This document shows positions 26,813-40,520 of a DNA stretch of 64,000 bases, one piece after another. The first letter of the stretch is position 1; each line of letters opens with the position of its first letter. Made by a program: the position numbers and the translations under genes. The DNA is taken from assembly GCA_011959805.1 (NCBI GenBank), contig BLMC01000003.1, positions 1-64,000 on the forward strand. Reading direction: 5' to 3'. The notes beneath the pieces are model-generated. The model made no database searches and was not told where the DNA came from. It saw only the letters and a list, made by a program, of their open reading frames with translations. Source of the stretch: Lachnospiraceae bacterium (GTDB taxonomy: Bacteria > Bacillota > Clostridia > Lachnospirales > Lachnospiraceae).

Positions 26813-27382
26813 ATGGAAAACCAAAAGGAGCAGATTTTAGCAGAGGCGTTAAAGGAAGCGACAAAGAAAGCTTTTGTAGATTTGTTTGCCCAAAATCCAA
26901 AAGAACATTTTTATTATTGCACGCTTGTGTTGATAGAGGCACAGGGATGTCCTGTGGTATCTGCAATGTCTGAAGAAGCATTGGATAGAGTCGTAAAAAA
27001 ATATATAGAAGAGTATAAAGTTGAAGATTCGCCAGAAAATTTAAGACAGGACCTTAAATGGTCATATGCAGATTCTCCGTATAATTTATATGGAGAGCAG
27101 TATTTTACAAAGGTTCAACAAATCGTTGAGGAAAGAGATGCAAAGTTACAGTCGGATGAAGATTTTGAGCAGGAATATGAAATACGAATGAATATTATGG
27201 AAAAAGTTATGGCGGATTTGGACCAGGAGGGAATCTTTGGGAGTGGGGAACAAAGAAATCGTATTGTCGTTGCGGCGGAAGTAATGCCGCCTGACGATAC
27301 AAACACATCAAGGGTACTTCGACTAAACGCAAAAGAAAATTTAAAAGAATGGCTTGAGGAAGCAGCGGAGGAATTAGAATGA
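26813..27382 (+). CDS. DUF4303-like protein
   Basis: FYYCTLVLIEAQGCPVVSAMSEEALDRV...DLKWSYADSPYNLYGEQYF; overlaps next start by ATGA. Confidence 0.7.
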   Translation: MENQKEQILAEALKEATKKAFVDLFAQNPKEHFYYCTLVLIEAQGCPVVSAMSEEALDRVVKKYIEEYKVEDSPENLRQDLKWSYADSPYNLYGEQYFTKVQQIVEERDAKLQSDEDFEQEYEIRMNIMEKVMADLDQEGIFGSGEQRNRIVVAAEVMPPDDTNTSRVLRLNAKENLKEWLEEAAEELE

Positions 27383-29391
27383 GATTTGAATTTGACAAAA
27401 AGAATTGGACATCAATACAAGAGGGAGAAAAGGATTGTTATTTGCTCACAAATGGATTGGGCGGATACAGTAGTTTATCTATAATAGGTGCAGCAGCAAG
27501 AGGCGACCATGCATTGCTGATGTCCGCTAAAAGAGCGCCAAATGTTAGAATGCATTTGGTTTCCAATATTTTTGAAAAGCTAGTCATTGATGGACAAGCG
27601 TATATTTTGACTTCGCAGCGCATGAAATCGGGAGTGGATTATGAGGGATTTCATTATCTGGAAAAGTTTGTGTATGATGATTTTGATGAAAATGCACCTA
27701 TGTGGACATTTCAGATTGCGGATGTGACTGTCACAAAACATTTACAGATGGCGCATGGCGAAAATAAGGTGGCATTGTGGTATCAAATTGATAATCCTTT
27801 AGAGAAAGATGTGACATTAGAACTTTTGCCGTTGTTACGGTTTACATCAAAAAAAGAGGATTTTGATGTAACACAGGATTTGGACACATATAAGATAGCA
27901 TCTTATGATGCAAGTGTAAAAGCAGAAGTACAAGACGGACAATATTATATTACGGATGGGGATATTAAACTATTTCTTACTACGAATGCAGATTTTGCTT
28001 TGCAGCAAGCACATTTATTTGGAGAATTATATTTTTCACAGGATGAACGTGATGGGCGTATGGCGTATGGTAATGCCTTCGTGAATTGTATTTTGAAAAA
28101 ACAGACAGGAAGAAAAAGTGACATCTATGTCATTTTTAGCACAGAGGAGAATGCCAATTCTAGTGCGAAACAATGTTATGAAGATTGCGTACAGAAAAAC
28201 AGTGCACACAAAAAGCAGTTGCTTACGCAGGCCACACTATCCTCTGACCTTGGAAAGCAGCTTGTGTTAAGTGCAGATGCGTATATTGTGCGACGAGATT
28301 CTACCAATGGTAAGAGCATTATAGCGGGCTACCCATTTTTTGAAGACTGGGGACGTGATACAATGATATCACTTGCAGGCGCGACCATAGTAACAAAACG
28401 TTTTGCAGAGTGCAAGAGCATTCTCCAGACTTTTGCAAAATATGTGAAAAATGGATTATTGCCAAATCTGTTTCCAGAGGGTGGAGAAAATCCTATGTAT
28501 AACTCTGCTGACGCGCCATTGTTGTTTGTGAATGCAGTGTATGAGTATATGAAATATTCTGGTGATAAGGCATTTGAGAGTGAGATATTGCCTGTGTTAG
28601 AACAGATTATTGACCAATATCAAAATGGTACGGATTTTCATATTGGTATGGATAGCGATGGTTTAATTATGGCGGGCGCTGAGTTGGAACAGCTTACATG
28701 GATGGATGTGCGTGTGGGTGATTTTCTACCGACGCCAAGACATGGAAAGCCTGTGGAAATTAATGCATATTGGTATAGTGCATTGATGGTGATGTATGAG
28801 CTGACACAGGAGGCAAAATATCAGGAACTTGCTGCAAAGGCAAAAGCTTCTTTTATAGAGAAGTTTTGGAATGAAAGCGAACAATGCTTAAAAGATGTGT
28901 TGTCTGGTGGAAAGGATGAGAATCAGATTCGGTGTAATCAGATTTGGGTACTGACAATGCCGTTTACAATGCTTTCTGCCGAAAAAGAAGCATTGGTTCT
29001 TAAGAAAATAAAAGATGAATTGTACACAACAGTTGGTTTGCGTACATTGGCAAAGAATGATTGTGATTTTCATCCTGTCTATATTGGACCGATGGAGGAG
29101 CGCGACAGAGCATATCATCAAGGAACTGTATGGGCATTTCCGTTAGGAGCGTATTATAGAGCATGTGTTCGATATGCAGAGAAATGTGAGGACATAGCAG
29201 AAAAGGAGCGCATTAAAACAGAACTGAAGGAAGGTTTTGTGGCGCTTAAAACATGGTTGCGAGAAGGCTGTGTTTCGCAGATTGCTGAGATTTATGATGG
29301 CGATACGCCAACTGTGTCAAGAGGGTGTTTTGCACAGGCATGGAGCGTAACAGAACTATTGCGGGCTGTCTATGATTTTGAAAGGATGTAA
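27379..29391 (+). CDS. Glycogen debranching enzyme (amylo-alpha-1,6-glucosidase type)
   Basis: YLLTNGLGGYSSLSI, GYPFFEDWGRDTMISLAG, NLFPEGGENPMYNSADAPLLFV, TWMDVRVGD. Confidence 0.93.
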   Translation: MRFEFDKKNWTSIQEGEKDCYLLTNGLGGYSSLSIIGAAARGDHALLMSAKRAPNVRMHLVSNIFEKLVIDGQAYILTSQRMKSGVDYEGFHYLEKFVYDDFDENAPMWTFQIADVTVTKHLQMAHGENKVALWYQIDNPLEKDVTLELLPLLRFTSKKEDFDVTQDLDTYKIASYDASVKAEVQDGQYYITDGDIKLFLTTNADFALQQAHLFGELYFSQDERDGRMAYGNAFVNCILKKQTGRKSDIYVIFSTEENANSSAKQCYEDCVQKNSAHKKQLLTQATLSSDLGKQLVLSADAYIVRRDSTNGKSIIAGYPFFEDWGRDTMISLAGATIVTKRFAECKSILQTFAKYVKNGLLPNLFPEGGENPMYNSADAPLLFVNAVYEYMKYSGDKAFESEILPVLEQIIDQYQNGTDFHIGMDSDGLIMAGAELEQLTWMDVRVGDFLPTPRHGKPVEINAYWYSALMVMYELTQEAKYQELAAKAKASFIEKFWNESEQCLKDVLSGGKDENQIRCNQIWVLTMPFTMLSAEKEALVLKKIKDELYTTVGLRTLAKNDCDFHPVYIGPMEERDRAYHQGTVWAFPLGAYYRACVRYAEKCEDIAEKERIKTELKEGFVALKTWLREGCVSQIAEIYDGDTPTVSRGCFAQAWSVTELLRAVYDFERM

Positions 29392-36460: not shown

Positions 36461-36775
36461 GAATTCGTACACCAAACCTTTCTTAAGCTTCAGGGATTGT
36501 CTATAAAAGTATTGCACAAATATACCCTGGGTAAATTGGAATTATTGCCAATATTTTTATCTTACCGAAATTATATAGACAAATCAAGAAATTTTTCAAA
36601 TTTATTACGAGTTATTTTTAGTTCTGAAAAAATTTTTCAAAAATTAGGTTGATAAAGCGCGAATTACTTGACATAGAGTATAGAAAGCGAGTATCATAAA
36701 ATATAGAAATGAATAAATGAACACAGATGGAACGGATTTTGTCATTTGGCCGTGGCATGCACTTGAGGTACTGAG

Positions 36776-37522
36776 ATGGAAGTTAAAACAGATGGAAAGA
36801 TAATTAATTTCATTAGAAGAAAAATAAAAAATTCCAAAAACGTTGTTGCAGTGCTTGGTATAGAGATGCTTGTGGAGAGCGGTGGATATGATCTTGACAC
36901 GAATGATGAGAACTATCGTGTGGAGGAAGAGTACGGATTTAGTCCAGAGGACATGCTTTCTACGAGTTTCTTTAATGCAAAGGTTGAAAAATTTTATCGT
37001 TTTTATAAGAAGGAGATTTTGGGAATGCAAATGCATTCCACACCTGCGTATGATGCACTGATGCGGTTACAAGCACAAGGAAAACTCTCTGCGGTGATTA
37101 ACCAGAATTTTCATGGACTGCCACAGGACATAAAATTCAAAAAAGTAATCAACTTAAATGGAAGTATCCATATCAATCAATGTCCGCATTGTGATAAGGA
37201 TTTTGACATGCAATATATTATAAATGCGAATGGAATTCCACAATGCAACCATTGTAAAATGGCCATTAGACCAGGAATTCGTCTGTTGGGAGAGCGTGTT
37301 GATTCAGATTTAATGACGCAGACAGCAATAATCTGTGACGCAGCGGATGTTTTGTTGATTCTTGGGAAGAATATATATCACAACCGACTTGAATACAGTG
37401 CAGCTCCAGAACATGAGCAGCTTAAGGTGCTCTTCTCAAAGAGCGAATTTGAACAAAACAGCAAAGTGAACTTTATTATCAGAGATGATATCTGTAAATT
37501 CCTACCTCTTATAATCGATTAA
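36776..37522 (+). CDS. Sirtuin (Sir2)-like protein with degenerate active site
   Basis: Sir2 architecture with Zn Cys pairs (CPHC...CNHC) and IRPGIRLLGE, but GAGIS, TQNIDGLH and the catalytic HG motif are altered. Confidence 0.75.
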   Translation: MEVKTDGKIINFIRRKIKNSKNVVAVLGIEMLVESGGYDLDTNDENYRVEEEYGFSPEDMLSTSFFNAKVEKFYRFYKKEILGMQMHSTPAYDALMRLQAQGKLSAVINQNFHGLPQDIKFKKVINLNGSIHINQCPHCDKDFDMQYIINANGIPQCNHCKMAIRPGIRLLGERVDSDLMTQTAIICDAADVLLILGKNIYHNRLEYSAAPEHEQLKVLFSKSEFEQNSKVNFIIRDDICKFLPLIID

Positions 37523-37547: not shown

Positions 37548-39572
37548 ATGAAGAGAACAAAAATTAAAAATGGACAGCCCTACCCTTTAGGAGCCTCCGT
37601 CAGGGAGGACGGCATTAATTTTTCTATGGTAAATAGTTCCAATAAGGAGTGTGGAATTGTTTTTTACCGGAAGGGAATTGAGCAGAAAGAGCGTATTCTT
37701 TTTGATCAGAAGCATAGAATTGGAAATATTTGCTGTGCTTTTGTGGAAGGAATAACGGCTAGTAATTGTGAGTATAATTTTTTTATTGGAGATCATATCT
37801 TTATAGACCCCTATGCAAAGCGAATTGTTGGCAATGAGAAATGGCGTTCTGGCGAATTTGAGCATCTTCTTTTGCGAGGAGGATTTGACAATTGTGTGTT
37901 TGACTGGCAGGATACGGCACCATTACATCTCCCATATCAGCAAAGTATTATGTATTGTCTTAATGTCAGGAGCTTTACAAGGCATTCCTCTTCCAAAGTG
38001 ACTAAGAAAGGTACATTTGAGGGACTTACAGAAAAAATCCCATATTTGAAAGAACTTGGAGTCAATTCAATAGAATTGATGCCAGCGTATGAATTTGAGG
38101 AGTGTGAGTGGGATGAGACGGATATTGCAACTAGACAACAGATTGCGTATCAGGTAGCGCATATCGATGAGAAATTACAGTTGGATCAAGAACCAAAGCG
38201 CGCAAAAAGACTAAATTGTTGGGGATATAAGGAAGCATTTTACTTTGCGCCTAAGGCATCTTATTCTGCAAGTGGAAACCCATGTGAAGAGTTTAGAAGC
38301 ATGGTACGAAAACTTCATAAAAATGGCATAGAAGTGATTATGCAATTTTATTTTCCAGAGCATATAAAACAGGGTTATATTCTTGAGATTATCAAGCATT
38401 GGGTTTTGGAATATCAAATTGATGGCGTACATTTAAAGGGCAGTCGACTGCCTCTGACGCTGATTGCTACAGAACCGCTTTTTGCAGATATAAAGATTAT
38501 ATGTGAGAATTTTTATCTGCATGAAATCTATCCAAATGGGGTAAACCCATCTGTCAGAACTTTGGGATATTATAGAGATGAGTTTATGTGTGATATGCGC
38601 AGATATCTCAAAGGAGACCAAGATATGCTCAAAAGTTTCCAATATCATATGAGAAACACAAATCCTAAGTGCGGCGTAATTAATTACATTGCAAATTATT
38701 ATGGTTTTACACTGAACGATCTTGTGTCCTACGAAAGAAAGCATAATGAATTGAATGGCGAAGGGAATACAGATGGAACGGATTATAACCTTAGTTGGAA
38801 TTGTGGGGCAGAGGGACCATCACGCAAGAAGGCAGTGAGACAGCTACGTCATAAACAGATGAAAAATGCGCTTGGATTTTTATTTACTGCGCAGGGAACG
38901 CCACTTTTGTATGCAGGTGATGAATTTGGAAATAGTCAATATGGCAATAACAATTGTTATTGCCAGGATAATGAGACTGGATGGGTAAACTGGAATGGAC
39001 TTTCTACAAATGCAGATGTGTTTGCTTTTGCAAAAGAATTGATTTCTTTTCGGAAAAATCACAATATTCTCCATCTTGGAGAACCGCTTACAATGCTTGA
39101 CCGATTTGGTCAGGGATATCCTGATCTTTCCTATCATGGTGAGGAAGCCTGGAAGGCACAATTAGAAAGTTATAACAGACATATTGGTATTATGTACTGT
39201 GGAAAAAATGAGAGCGCCGATGAGGGAGATTATGTTTATATTGCCTATAACATGCATTGGAATGCGCATCGTTTTGCACTGCCATCTATCGCAAATCACA
39301 AATGGGTTTCTGTGATTTGCACAGAAGAGAATCTTGTTATTTCTGACGTTGAGAGGAATACAGAGTATATTGATGTCGCGCCGAGGAGTATTTCGATTTT
39401 AATAGGTAGAATGTTGTCCGAGGAGGAAAGAAAGCAAAAAAATTCTCTTATGATAAAGGATAATACATTACAAAAAACAGGTGTGATTCAAAATAAACGT
39501 TGTGCGGTAACTTCAGCACCGGAAAATACTACAAAAAATAATCAAAAAAATAAAAGCAAAAAAGGTAAGTAA
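37548..39572 (+). CDS. GH13 (isoamylase/pullulanase-type debranching) homologue, catalytic motifs lost
   Basis: INYIANYYGFTLNDLVSYERKHNELNGEGN, GTFEGLTEKIPYLKELGVNSIELMPAYEF; canonical DVVFNH / GFRFD / HD residues not conserved. Confidence 0.8.
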   Translation: MKRTKIKNGQPYPLGASVREDGINFSMVNSSNKECGIVFYRKGIEQKERILFDQKHRIGNICCAFVEGITASNCEYNFFIGDHIFIDPYAKRIVGNEKWRSGEFEHLLLRGGFDNCVFDWQDTAPLHLPYQQSIMYCLNVRSFTRHSSSKVTKKGTFEGLTEKIPYLKELGVNSIELMPAYEFEECEWDETDIATRQQIAYQVAHIDEKLQLDQEPKRAKRLNCWGYKEAFYFAPKASYSASGNPCEEFRSMVRKLHKNGIEVIMQFYFPEHIKQGYILEIIKHWVLEYQIDGVHLKGSRLPLTLIATEPLFADIKIICENFYLHEIYPNGVNPSVRTLGYYRDEFMCDMRRYLKGDQDMLKSFQYHMRNTNPKCGVINYIANYYGFTLNDLVSYERKHNELNGEGNTDGTDYNLSWNCGAEGPSRKKAVRQLRHKQMKNALGFLFTAQGTPLLYAGDEFGNSQYGNNNCYCQDNETGWVNWNGLSTNADVFAFAKELISFRKNHNILHLGEPLTMLDRFGQGYPDLSYHGEEAWKAQLESYNRHIGIMYCGKNESADEGDYVYIAYNMHWNAHRFALPSIANHKWVSVICTEENLVISDVERNTEYIDVAPRSISILIGRMLSEEERKQKNSLMIKDNTLQKTGVIQNKRCAVTSAPENTTKNNQKNKSKKGK

Positions 39573-39574
39573 AG

Positions 39575-40144
39575 ATGCATATTTGGAAACACTTTAAAAC
39601 AATTACACATCATAAGTTTATGGTAATGAAAGGGTGCTTTTCCGTTGGATTGTACAGACAGGGACTGATGCATGACCTTTCTAAGTATATGCCAAGTGAA
39701 TTTCTTGTCGGTGCAAAATATTATCAGGGAACACAGAGTCCGAATAATGCAGAGCGAAAAGAAAAAGGATATTCTGCTGCATGGCTGCATCATAAAGGCA
39801 GAAATAAGCATCATTATGAGTATTGGATGGATTACAGTGCACATGCAGGCAGGGGAATTATTCCTGCAAAGATGCCGGACAATTATATTGTAGAGATGTT
39901 TATTGATCGGGTTGCTGCCTCCAAAAATTACAATAAAGAAAATTATACAGATGATATGGTTTTAAAGTATTATCTCAGCGGGAATCCGAACACTTTTATG
40001 CATAGGGAAACGAGAAGAAAACTTGAGAAATTATTGTATATGTTGGCAGAACGGGGAGAAAACTATACAATGCGTTATATTCGCAAGAGAATTATTCCTA
40101 AGATCAAAAAACAAAATTTTTTAAAATCAAAGAGATATAAGTAA
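39575..40144 (+). CDS. DUF5662-like protein
   Basis: MHIWKHFKTITHHKFMV..GLYRQGLMHDLSKYMPSEF...AWLHHKGRNKHHYEYW. Confidence 0.8.
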   Translation: MHIWKHFKTITHHKFMVMKGCFSVGLYRQGLMHDLSKYMPSEFLVGAKYYQGTQSPNNAERKEKGYSAAWLHHKGRNKHHYEYWMDYSAHAGRGIIPAKMPDNYIVEMFIDRVAASKNYNKENYTDDMVLKYYLSGNPNTFMHRETRRKLEKLLYMLAERGENYTMRYIRKRIIPKIKKQNFLKSKRYK

Positions 40145-40210: not shown

Positions 40211-40462
40211 ATGAATTGTTGGTTTTGGATTATCTTATTGTGGTGTTTTTGTGGGAAGGGCGGTTGCCAGAACAATTGTATAGGTACATGTGATCGTAAT
40301 AACGATTGTGATTGCAATTGTAATCCTACATTTCCAACACCAGTTGTTCCACCTTGCCCTCCGAACAATGGTTGTGGCTGCGGAAATGATATGATACAGC
40401 CGCGCGGCTTTGCTGGATTTGGAGACAACAATACCTGCGGGTGTGAAGAGAAAGAAAACTAA
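40211..40462 (+). CDS. Small Cys/Asn/Gly-rich protein, 83 aa
   Basis: MNCWFWIILLWCFCGKGGCQNNCIGTCDRNNDCDCNCNPTFP...; RBS GAGGAG. Confidence 0.65.
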   Translation: MNCWFWIILLWCFCGKGGCQNNCIGTCDRNNDCDCNCNPTFPTPVVPPCPPNNGCGCGNDMIQPRGFAGFGDNNTCGCEEKEN

Positions 40463-40472
40463 AATAAAAAAC

Positions 40473-40520
40473 CACTATAGAAGCGTGCACAAATGCTGCA
40501 CGCTTCTATAGTGTGTATTT
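40473..40520 (+). terminator. Intrinsic terminator after Cys-rich ORF
   Basis: CACTATAGAAGCGTGCA-CAAATGC-TGCACGCTTCTATAGTG, 17-bp perfect arms. Confidence 0.85.

Follow-up and report, generated by a model that had tools for sequence, protein, structure and literature searches.

The open reading frame at positions 36776-37522 (+ strand) of the window, that is, of the whole 64,000-nucleotide stretch of gut bacterial DNA that was analyzed, encodes a 248-residue pseudosirtuin in which the SIR2 fold is kept and the NAD and catalytic pocket has been rebuilt. Our preferred reading, to which we assign a probability of roughly 0.45 as a whole, is that the protein is a non-catalytic sirtuin-fold paralogue with a binding or regulatory role, probably exercised together with a neighboring pseudo-isoamylase on alpha-glucan. 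The components of this reading are not equally firm. Because the NAD and catalytic pocket is rebuilt, the protein very probably lacks NAD-dependent deacylase activity, and a binding or regulatory role is likely. That the pseudo-isoamylase is its physical partner and glycogen its pathway is a tentative proposal.

The gene product belongs to the SIR2 superfamily, and the match is far beyond chance. It was recognized by Pfam PF02146 at 2e-21 (77 bits versus a cut-off of 24), a phmmer search of the PDB matched it to Sir2Tm at 5.5e-19, and its AF2 model (pLDDT 91.3) aligned in Foldseek with Sir2Af2, Sir2Tm, and Sir2Af1 at E values of ~5e-17 and TM scores of 0.79 to 0.81. The features that define the superfamily, namely a profile score above cut-off, a Rossmann and Zn-module fold, and a CxxC...CxxC pattern, are all present. 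The Zn module (C136-x2-C139 ... C157-x2-C160, positions 37181..37255, + strand) is invariant in the alignments, and R165-P...G172-E173 (RPxxxxxGE) is still there. A preliminary description of this DNA had called the gene a sirtuin-like pseudoenzyme with a retained fold and Zn module, and had proposed an AlphaFold model with comparison to known sirtuins as a check; the TM score of ~0.8 to Sir2Tm and the other Sir2 structures bears out the fold, and the open reading frame and every motif that it quoted are present exactly as given. The NCBIfam search, for its part, found that the protein misses the cut-offs of all deacylase models (best score 130 bits versus 221). The same genome encodes a second, canonical sirtuin (G000:C82, L001), in which GAGVSTESGIPDFR, QNID, and HG are all intact and which shares ~30% identity with the pseudosirtuin. 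PADLOC gave no antiphage SIR2 match for the pseudosirtuin, and its neighborhood consists of housekeeping genes.

Relative to CobB, Sir2Tm, and Sir2Af (PF02146), the pseudosirtuin has the same fold, Zn cysteines, length, and motif order, whereas its NAD and catalytic residues are replaced and a clade-invariant Glu is inserted. In the genus, 15 of the 18 NAD and catalytic positions are changed. Remodeling affects the NAD phosphate loop and cofactor loop (residues 28-41, positions 36857..36898, + strand), where GIEMLVESGGYDLD is found in place of the canonical GAGVSTESGIPDFR; G28-IEML...E34-SGGYDLD-41 thus stands where GAGxS..SGIPDFR would be expected, and this segment is among the best-conserved stretches of the protein within the genus. 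Further along the cofactor loop, the inserted residue E50 (36923..36925, +) is invariant in 71 of 71 aligned pseudosirtuins; 17 of 19 canonical sirtuins have no residue there. Residues 110-114 read QNFHG (37103..37117, +) rather than QNIDG, and the catalytic His is replaced by N128 (37157..37159, +), which converts HG to NG in 23/23 genus sequences. None of these 23 sequences keeps the Ala, Ser, Phe, or Arg of GAGxS...PDFR, the Asp of QNID, the catalytic His, the Thr/Ser of GTS, or the Asn of LIN. The motif replacements reported in the preliminary description (GIEML...GGYDLD, QNFHG, and NG) are confirmed, and the marks of a CobB-type deacylase, which are the GAGxS...GIPDFR loop, QNID, the catalytic His, and a score above the NCBIfam equivalog cut-off, are lacking. 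Substrate-side motifs are altered too: GTSLxVYPA is lost throughout, and at the FGE-type strand the sequence is IRLLGE or one like it. The pocket is partly kept at Q110, N111, and D39; the retention of N111, the sirtuin catalytic Asn and a key sirtuin residue, counts against our explanation.

The substitutions are shared widely within the genus. Open-frame orthologues are present in 25 of 37 other genus genomes (the one in G019 ends at a contig end), with 57-88% identity for all but a divergent copy in G011 (39%), and one further genome, G035, carries a broken copy. With the exception of G011, the genus-wide pattern is G(I/V)EM(L/M), an Asp-Leu-Asp loop end, (Q/R)N(F/Y)HG, and NG for HG; the survey of substitutions suggested in the preliminary description thus finds them common to 23 distinct genus sequences. 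In a single-protein contig scan, the only sources of the pseudosirtuin were isolate A4 and Lachnospiraceae MAGs (57-88% identity), and the remaining aligned matches were canonical sirtuins. Pairwise dN/dS among genus pseudosirtuins, calculated with an NG86 script for 16 pairs with dS < 1.5, had a median of 0.067 and a range of 0.028-0.103, as compared to 0.046 for one pair of canonical sirtuins. The replaced pocket columns were more conserved than random columns (entropy 0.40 versus 0.86, P = 0.01). As judged from the sequences, the pocket in this genus is rebuilt and maintained rather than abandoned.

A profile search identified the pseudosirtuin in ~80 of 396 Lachnospiraceae genomes, which were mostly one per genus and many of which were MAGs. 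This figure is a hand tally, from tables, of genomes with a second SIR2 protein above the canonical score range (at least 250.6 bits, with one canonical protein, from G100, near the cut), and ~74 of the sequences were checked by alignment. The aligned clade set comprised 71 sequences, 23 from the genus and 48 distinct sequences from outside it. The Ala of GAG and the Asp of QNID were kept in 0/71 members, while among the 48 non-genus members Ser was kept in 4, Arg in 23, the catalytic His in 33, and the Zn cysteines in 48; the GTS Thr and LIN Asn were also kept in many of them. The alignments thus indicate that the His to Asn change belongs to this genus and that the whole clade has lost the Ala of GAG and the Asp of QNID. 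The interpretation in the preliminary description is supported in part: its pseudoenzyme assignment is strongly supported, with the qualification that the catalytic His replacement is genus-specific, and the binding or scaffolding role that it suggested is likely.

Phylogenetic analysis placed the pseudosirtuins in one clade with branch support of 100/100 (100/97 when SirTM-like outgroups were included), in a tree whose long branches call for caution. Among 295 sampled genomes of the order, no pseudosirtuin was found outside Lachnospiraceae, and all eight high-scoring proteins from outside the family were canonical. On the preferred reading, the protein arose once, by duplication and divergence of the usual CobB-type sirtuin of clostridia, either within Lachnospiraceae or at the root of the family. 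Re-fixation of the pocket was considered as a family-wide rule and rejected, as it was significant in this genus only: pocket conservation in three other sublineages was only average, and the pocket columns are highly variable family-wide. Because the pocket is differently conserved across sublineages and the family, it seems to have been remade separately in the sublineages.

The second gene of the locus, 25 bases past the pseudosirtuin stop codon, encodes a 674-residue GlgX/ISA-like protein (37548..39572, +) that was characterized by profiles, alignment, AF2, and Foldseek. Where active GH13 enzymes have an Asp nucleophile, a Glu acid/base, and an Asp stabilizer, the protein in the window has K, E, and Y. 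The nucleophile is replaced by K297 (38436..38438, +; DGVHLK versus DGFRFD), and the His-Asp of the transition-state stabilizer by Y384-Y385 (38697..38702, +). The nucleophile Asp is replaced in every aligned homologue, by Lys in the genus, where the stabilizer is Tyr-Tyr with two exceptions (Tyr-Phe and Tyr-Asp). Active GlgX paralogues keep FRFD, AEAWD, and HDGF in 10/10 cases checked. Based on these alignments, the protein is a second pseudoenzyme beside the pseudosirtuin. Its AF2 model has a pLDDT of 81, and the best Foldseek matches are rice ISA1 chains in ISA1-ISA2 complexes. Counted by score (E <= 1e-75), the pseudo-isoamylase occurs in 306 of the 396 genomes of the family, with catalytic residues checked in <50. 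The active GlgX of the window's genome (G000:C57, L239) is encoded elsewhere, keeps its triad, and is a candidate active-isoamylase partner for a heteromer. The family-wide retention of the pseudo-isoamylase beside an active GlgX paralogue may prove more important than the sirtuin.

A precedent for such an enzyme is plant ISA2, an isoamylase paralogue that has lost its nucleophile and other catalytic residues, is kept by selection, and affects glucan structure; why a dead isoamylase is retained in plants has been called not understood (PMC12510319). The protein described here resembles ISA2 in being a dead isoamylase, and its best fold matches include the ISA1/ISA2 proteins of rice (9j6x) and Arabidopsis. 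It differs in being a bacterial and independent case, in having ISA1 chains as its best fold match, and in that its partner is only a candidate. The pseudo-isoamylase would then represent, in bacteria, an independent equivalent of plant ISA2.

Within the genus, the gene order is conserved as gltX, a uvrD-like gene, DUF2225 (-), DUF1292 (-), pseudosirtuin, pseudo-isoamylase, and DUF5662. The pseudosirtuin and pseudo-isoamylase genes are co-directional in all genus loci that have both, with gaps of 8-221 bases that are mostly 17-33. In the window, a sigma-A-like promoter identified by consensus match only (TTGACA-18-TATCAT, 11/12; 36668..36697, +) lies 78 bases 5' of the pseudosirtuin ATG; 21 such sites were found in the region versus 16.9 expected, and this one shares the best score. 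The DUF5662 gene (39575..40144, +) is the third of the syntenic + strand run, and a strong bidirectional terminator-like hairpin with a 17 bp stem (40473..40513) closes the unit. The pseudosirtuin and pseudo-isoamylase are probably cotranscribed here. Between the DUF5662 gene and the hairpin is an 83-residue Cys-rich open reading frame (40211-40462, +) with an N-terminal hydrophobic stretch and the C-terminal motif CGC...QPRGFAGF...TCGCEEK, which is conserved through the genus, including in genomes that lack the pseudosirtuin. In other genera, the pseudo-isoamylase adjoins or lies near the pseudosirtuin in ~10 loci, and in many the pseudosirtuin sits by gltX or elsewhere, away from the pseudo-isoamylase. 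One sister lineage (L210, L212, L214, L215, L217-L220) has the order GNAT-ThrE fusion, ThrE_2, pseudosirtuin, gltX.

Two lines of evidence bear on whether the two pseudoenzymes act together. With respect to co-occurrence, 25/25 genus genomes with an open-frame pseudosirtuin carry the pseudo-isoamylase and the pseudosirtuin occurs alone in none, while four (G021, G014, G023, and G001) have the pseudo-isoamylase at the same locus with the pseudosirtuin missing, and seven have neither. Across the family, the pseudo-isoamylase is found in 78 of 81 pseudosirtuin genomes versus 228 of 315 others (Fisher P of 2.8e-7, phylogenetically uncorrected; the 78/81 is a hand tally at or above 250.6 bits that includes the broken G035 copy). 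This co-occurrence is only weakly informative, and was set aside as proof of a partnership, because the pseudo-isoamylase itself is so common (306/396). With respect to evolutionary rate, the pairwise distances of the pseudosirtuin correlate best with those of the pseudo-isoamylase among the genes of the locus (r = 0.925, raw); after control, this pair comes only 5th among 36 in residual covariation, a result that is suggestive and falls short of proving a partnership.

Taken as a mechanism, the preferred reading would run as follows. The Rossmann and Zn-module fold would be kept while NAD-dependent deacylation is lost, and because the pocket is held by selection in the genus, it most likely serves as a binding site for a partner protein or a different small ligand. 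The likeliest arrangement would be a regulatory or scaffolding complex of both dead enzymes on alpha-glucan, which would modulate active GlgX/GDE or glycogen synthesis by a logic like that of plant ISA2. A genuine glycogen debranching enzyme with GDE_N and GDE_C domains is encoded ~7 kb upstream (27379-29388, +). The wider generalization, in which the clade consists of old, single-origin, NAD-independent sirtuin-fold regulators of Lachnospiraceae that in one large gut genus and ~10 loci of other genera form a two-pseudoenzyme module with an ISA2-like dead isoamylase controlling the turnover or structure of glycogen, is less likely than not.

Several other explanations were weighed. The protein could be an acyl-lysine reader or decoy: with its peptide cleft partly retained, it would bind acylated proteins or the substrates of CobB, leave them unhydrolyzed, and thereby protect them from the active paralogue. 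The retained fold and Zn module, the active-looking sirtuin in the same genome, and the GNAT-ThrE fusion gene that adjoins the pseudosirtuin in the sister lineage would suit such a function. The substrate-side changes noted above speak against it, however, and the GNAT link is limited to one lineage, which makes this an unlikely account, if the least so of the four considered here. Slightly less probable is a function with glutamyl-tRNA synthetase or in translation. This is suggested by gltX being the commonest conserved neighbor across genera (beside or near the pseudosirtuin in 18/40 non-genus loci) and part of the extended genus synteny, but gltX also neighbors the block in genomes that lack the pseudosirtuin, and its distances correlate least with those of the pseudosirtuin among the locus genes (r = 0.67).

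A more remote proposal is that the protein remains an enzyme but uses another chemistry or cofactor, with a nucleotide or ADP-ribose as a conceivable substrate. The class M sirtuins (SirTM) provide a precedent: with His changed to Gln, they were once missed for want of the His, yet they bind NAD and are active, macrodomain-linked ADP-ribosyltransferases (PMC4518038). Retained chemistry would fit with the survival of Q110-N111 and D39 in the genus and of the His, GTS Thr, and LIN Asn in many non-genus members. Class M enzymes, however, bind NAD, whereas none of the 71 aligned pseudosirtuins has the GAG Ala or the QNID Asp, and 15/18 pocket positions are changed in the genus; moreover, the pocket residues vary between sublineages, unlike those of a conserved new active site. 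Far less probable than any of these is a decaying, functionless gene. The G035 copy (L044:3931-4368, -) is broken by an internal deletion next to an intact pseudo-isoamylase, and four relatives lack the gene at this locus; the pseudosirtuin is therefore dispensable in these five genomes. As a general account, decay is refuted by the dN/dS of 0.03-0.10 and by open frames that persist in 25 genomes of the genus and family-wide. The strain-specific decay that the preliminary description had named as a way for its reading to fail is excluded because orthologues occur in 25/37 genus genomes at a dN/dS of ~0.07, with 23 genus sequences sharing the substitutions under strong purifying selection and a clade that extends through the family.

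A literature search for pseudosirtuins, inactive bacterial sirtuins, and bacterial pseudo-isoamylases, which did not extend to subscription literature and preprints, found no description of either protein. The vertebrate sirtuins FAM118A and FAM118B, which are almost inactive alone, process NAD together, and are related to antiphage SIR2 (PMC12700824), offer a precedent for non-canonical sirtuins acting by paralogue assembly but lie outside the pseudosirtuin clade. Neither the class M nor the FAM118A/B papers describe this clade. Proteins that match SIR2 models are easily labeled NAD-dependent deacylases, and the clade suggests that in Lachnospiraceae, a major family of gut bacteria, roughly every fifth genome has one gene for which that label is incorrect. 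It also offers a natural series of sirtuins in which the NAD site is dismantled to varying degrees, with the His kept or lost, that could help to separate fold from chemistry. Like SirTM, the pseudosirtuin is a bacterial sirtuin without the catalytic His; it differs in that its NAD motifs are lost, it has no macrodomain, and its neighbors are the pseudo-isoamylase and DUF5662. SirTM is defined by HG to QG, a kept NAD site, and an operon with a macrodomain and GcvH-L/LplA2. Membership was rejected, as HG is changed to NG rather than QG, the NAD site is lost, and the protein falls outside the SirTM-like clade (L045, L047). SirTM-like sirtuins with EIQG or EFQG do occur in two relatives (L045:3524-5008, +, and L047:3612-4355, -), with two in tandem in G035.
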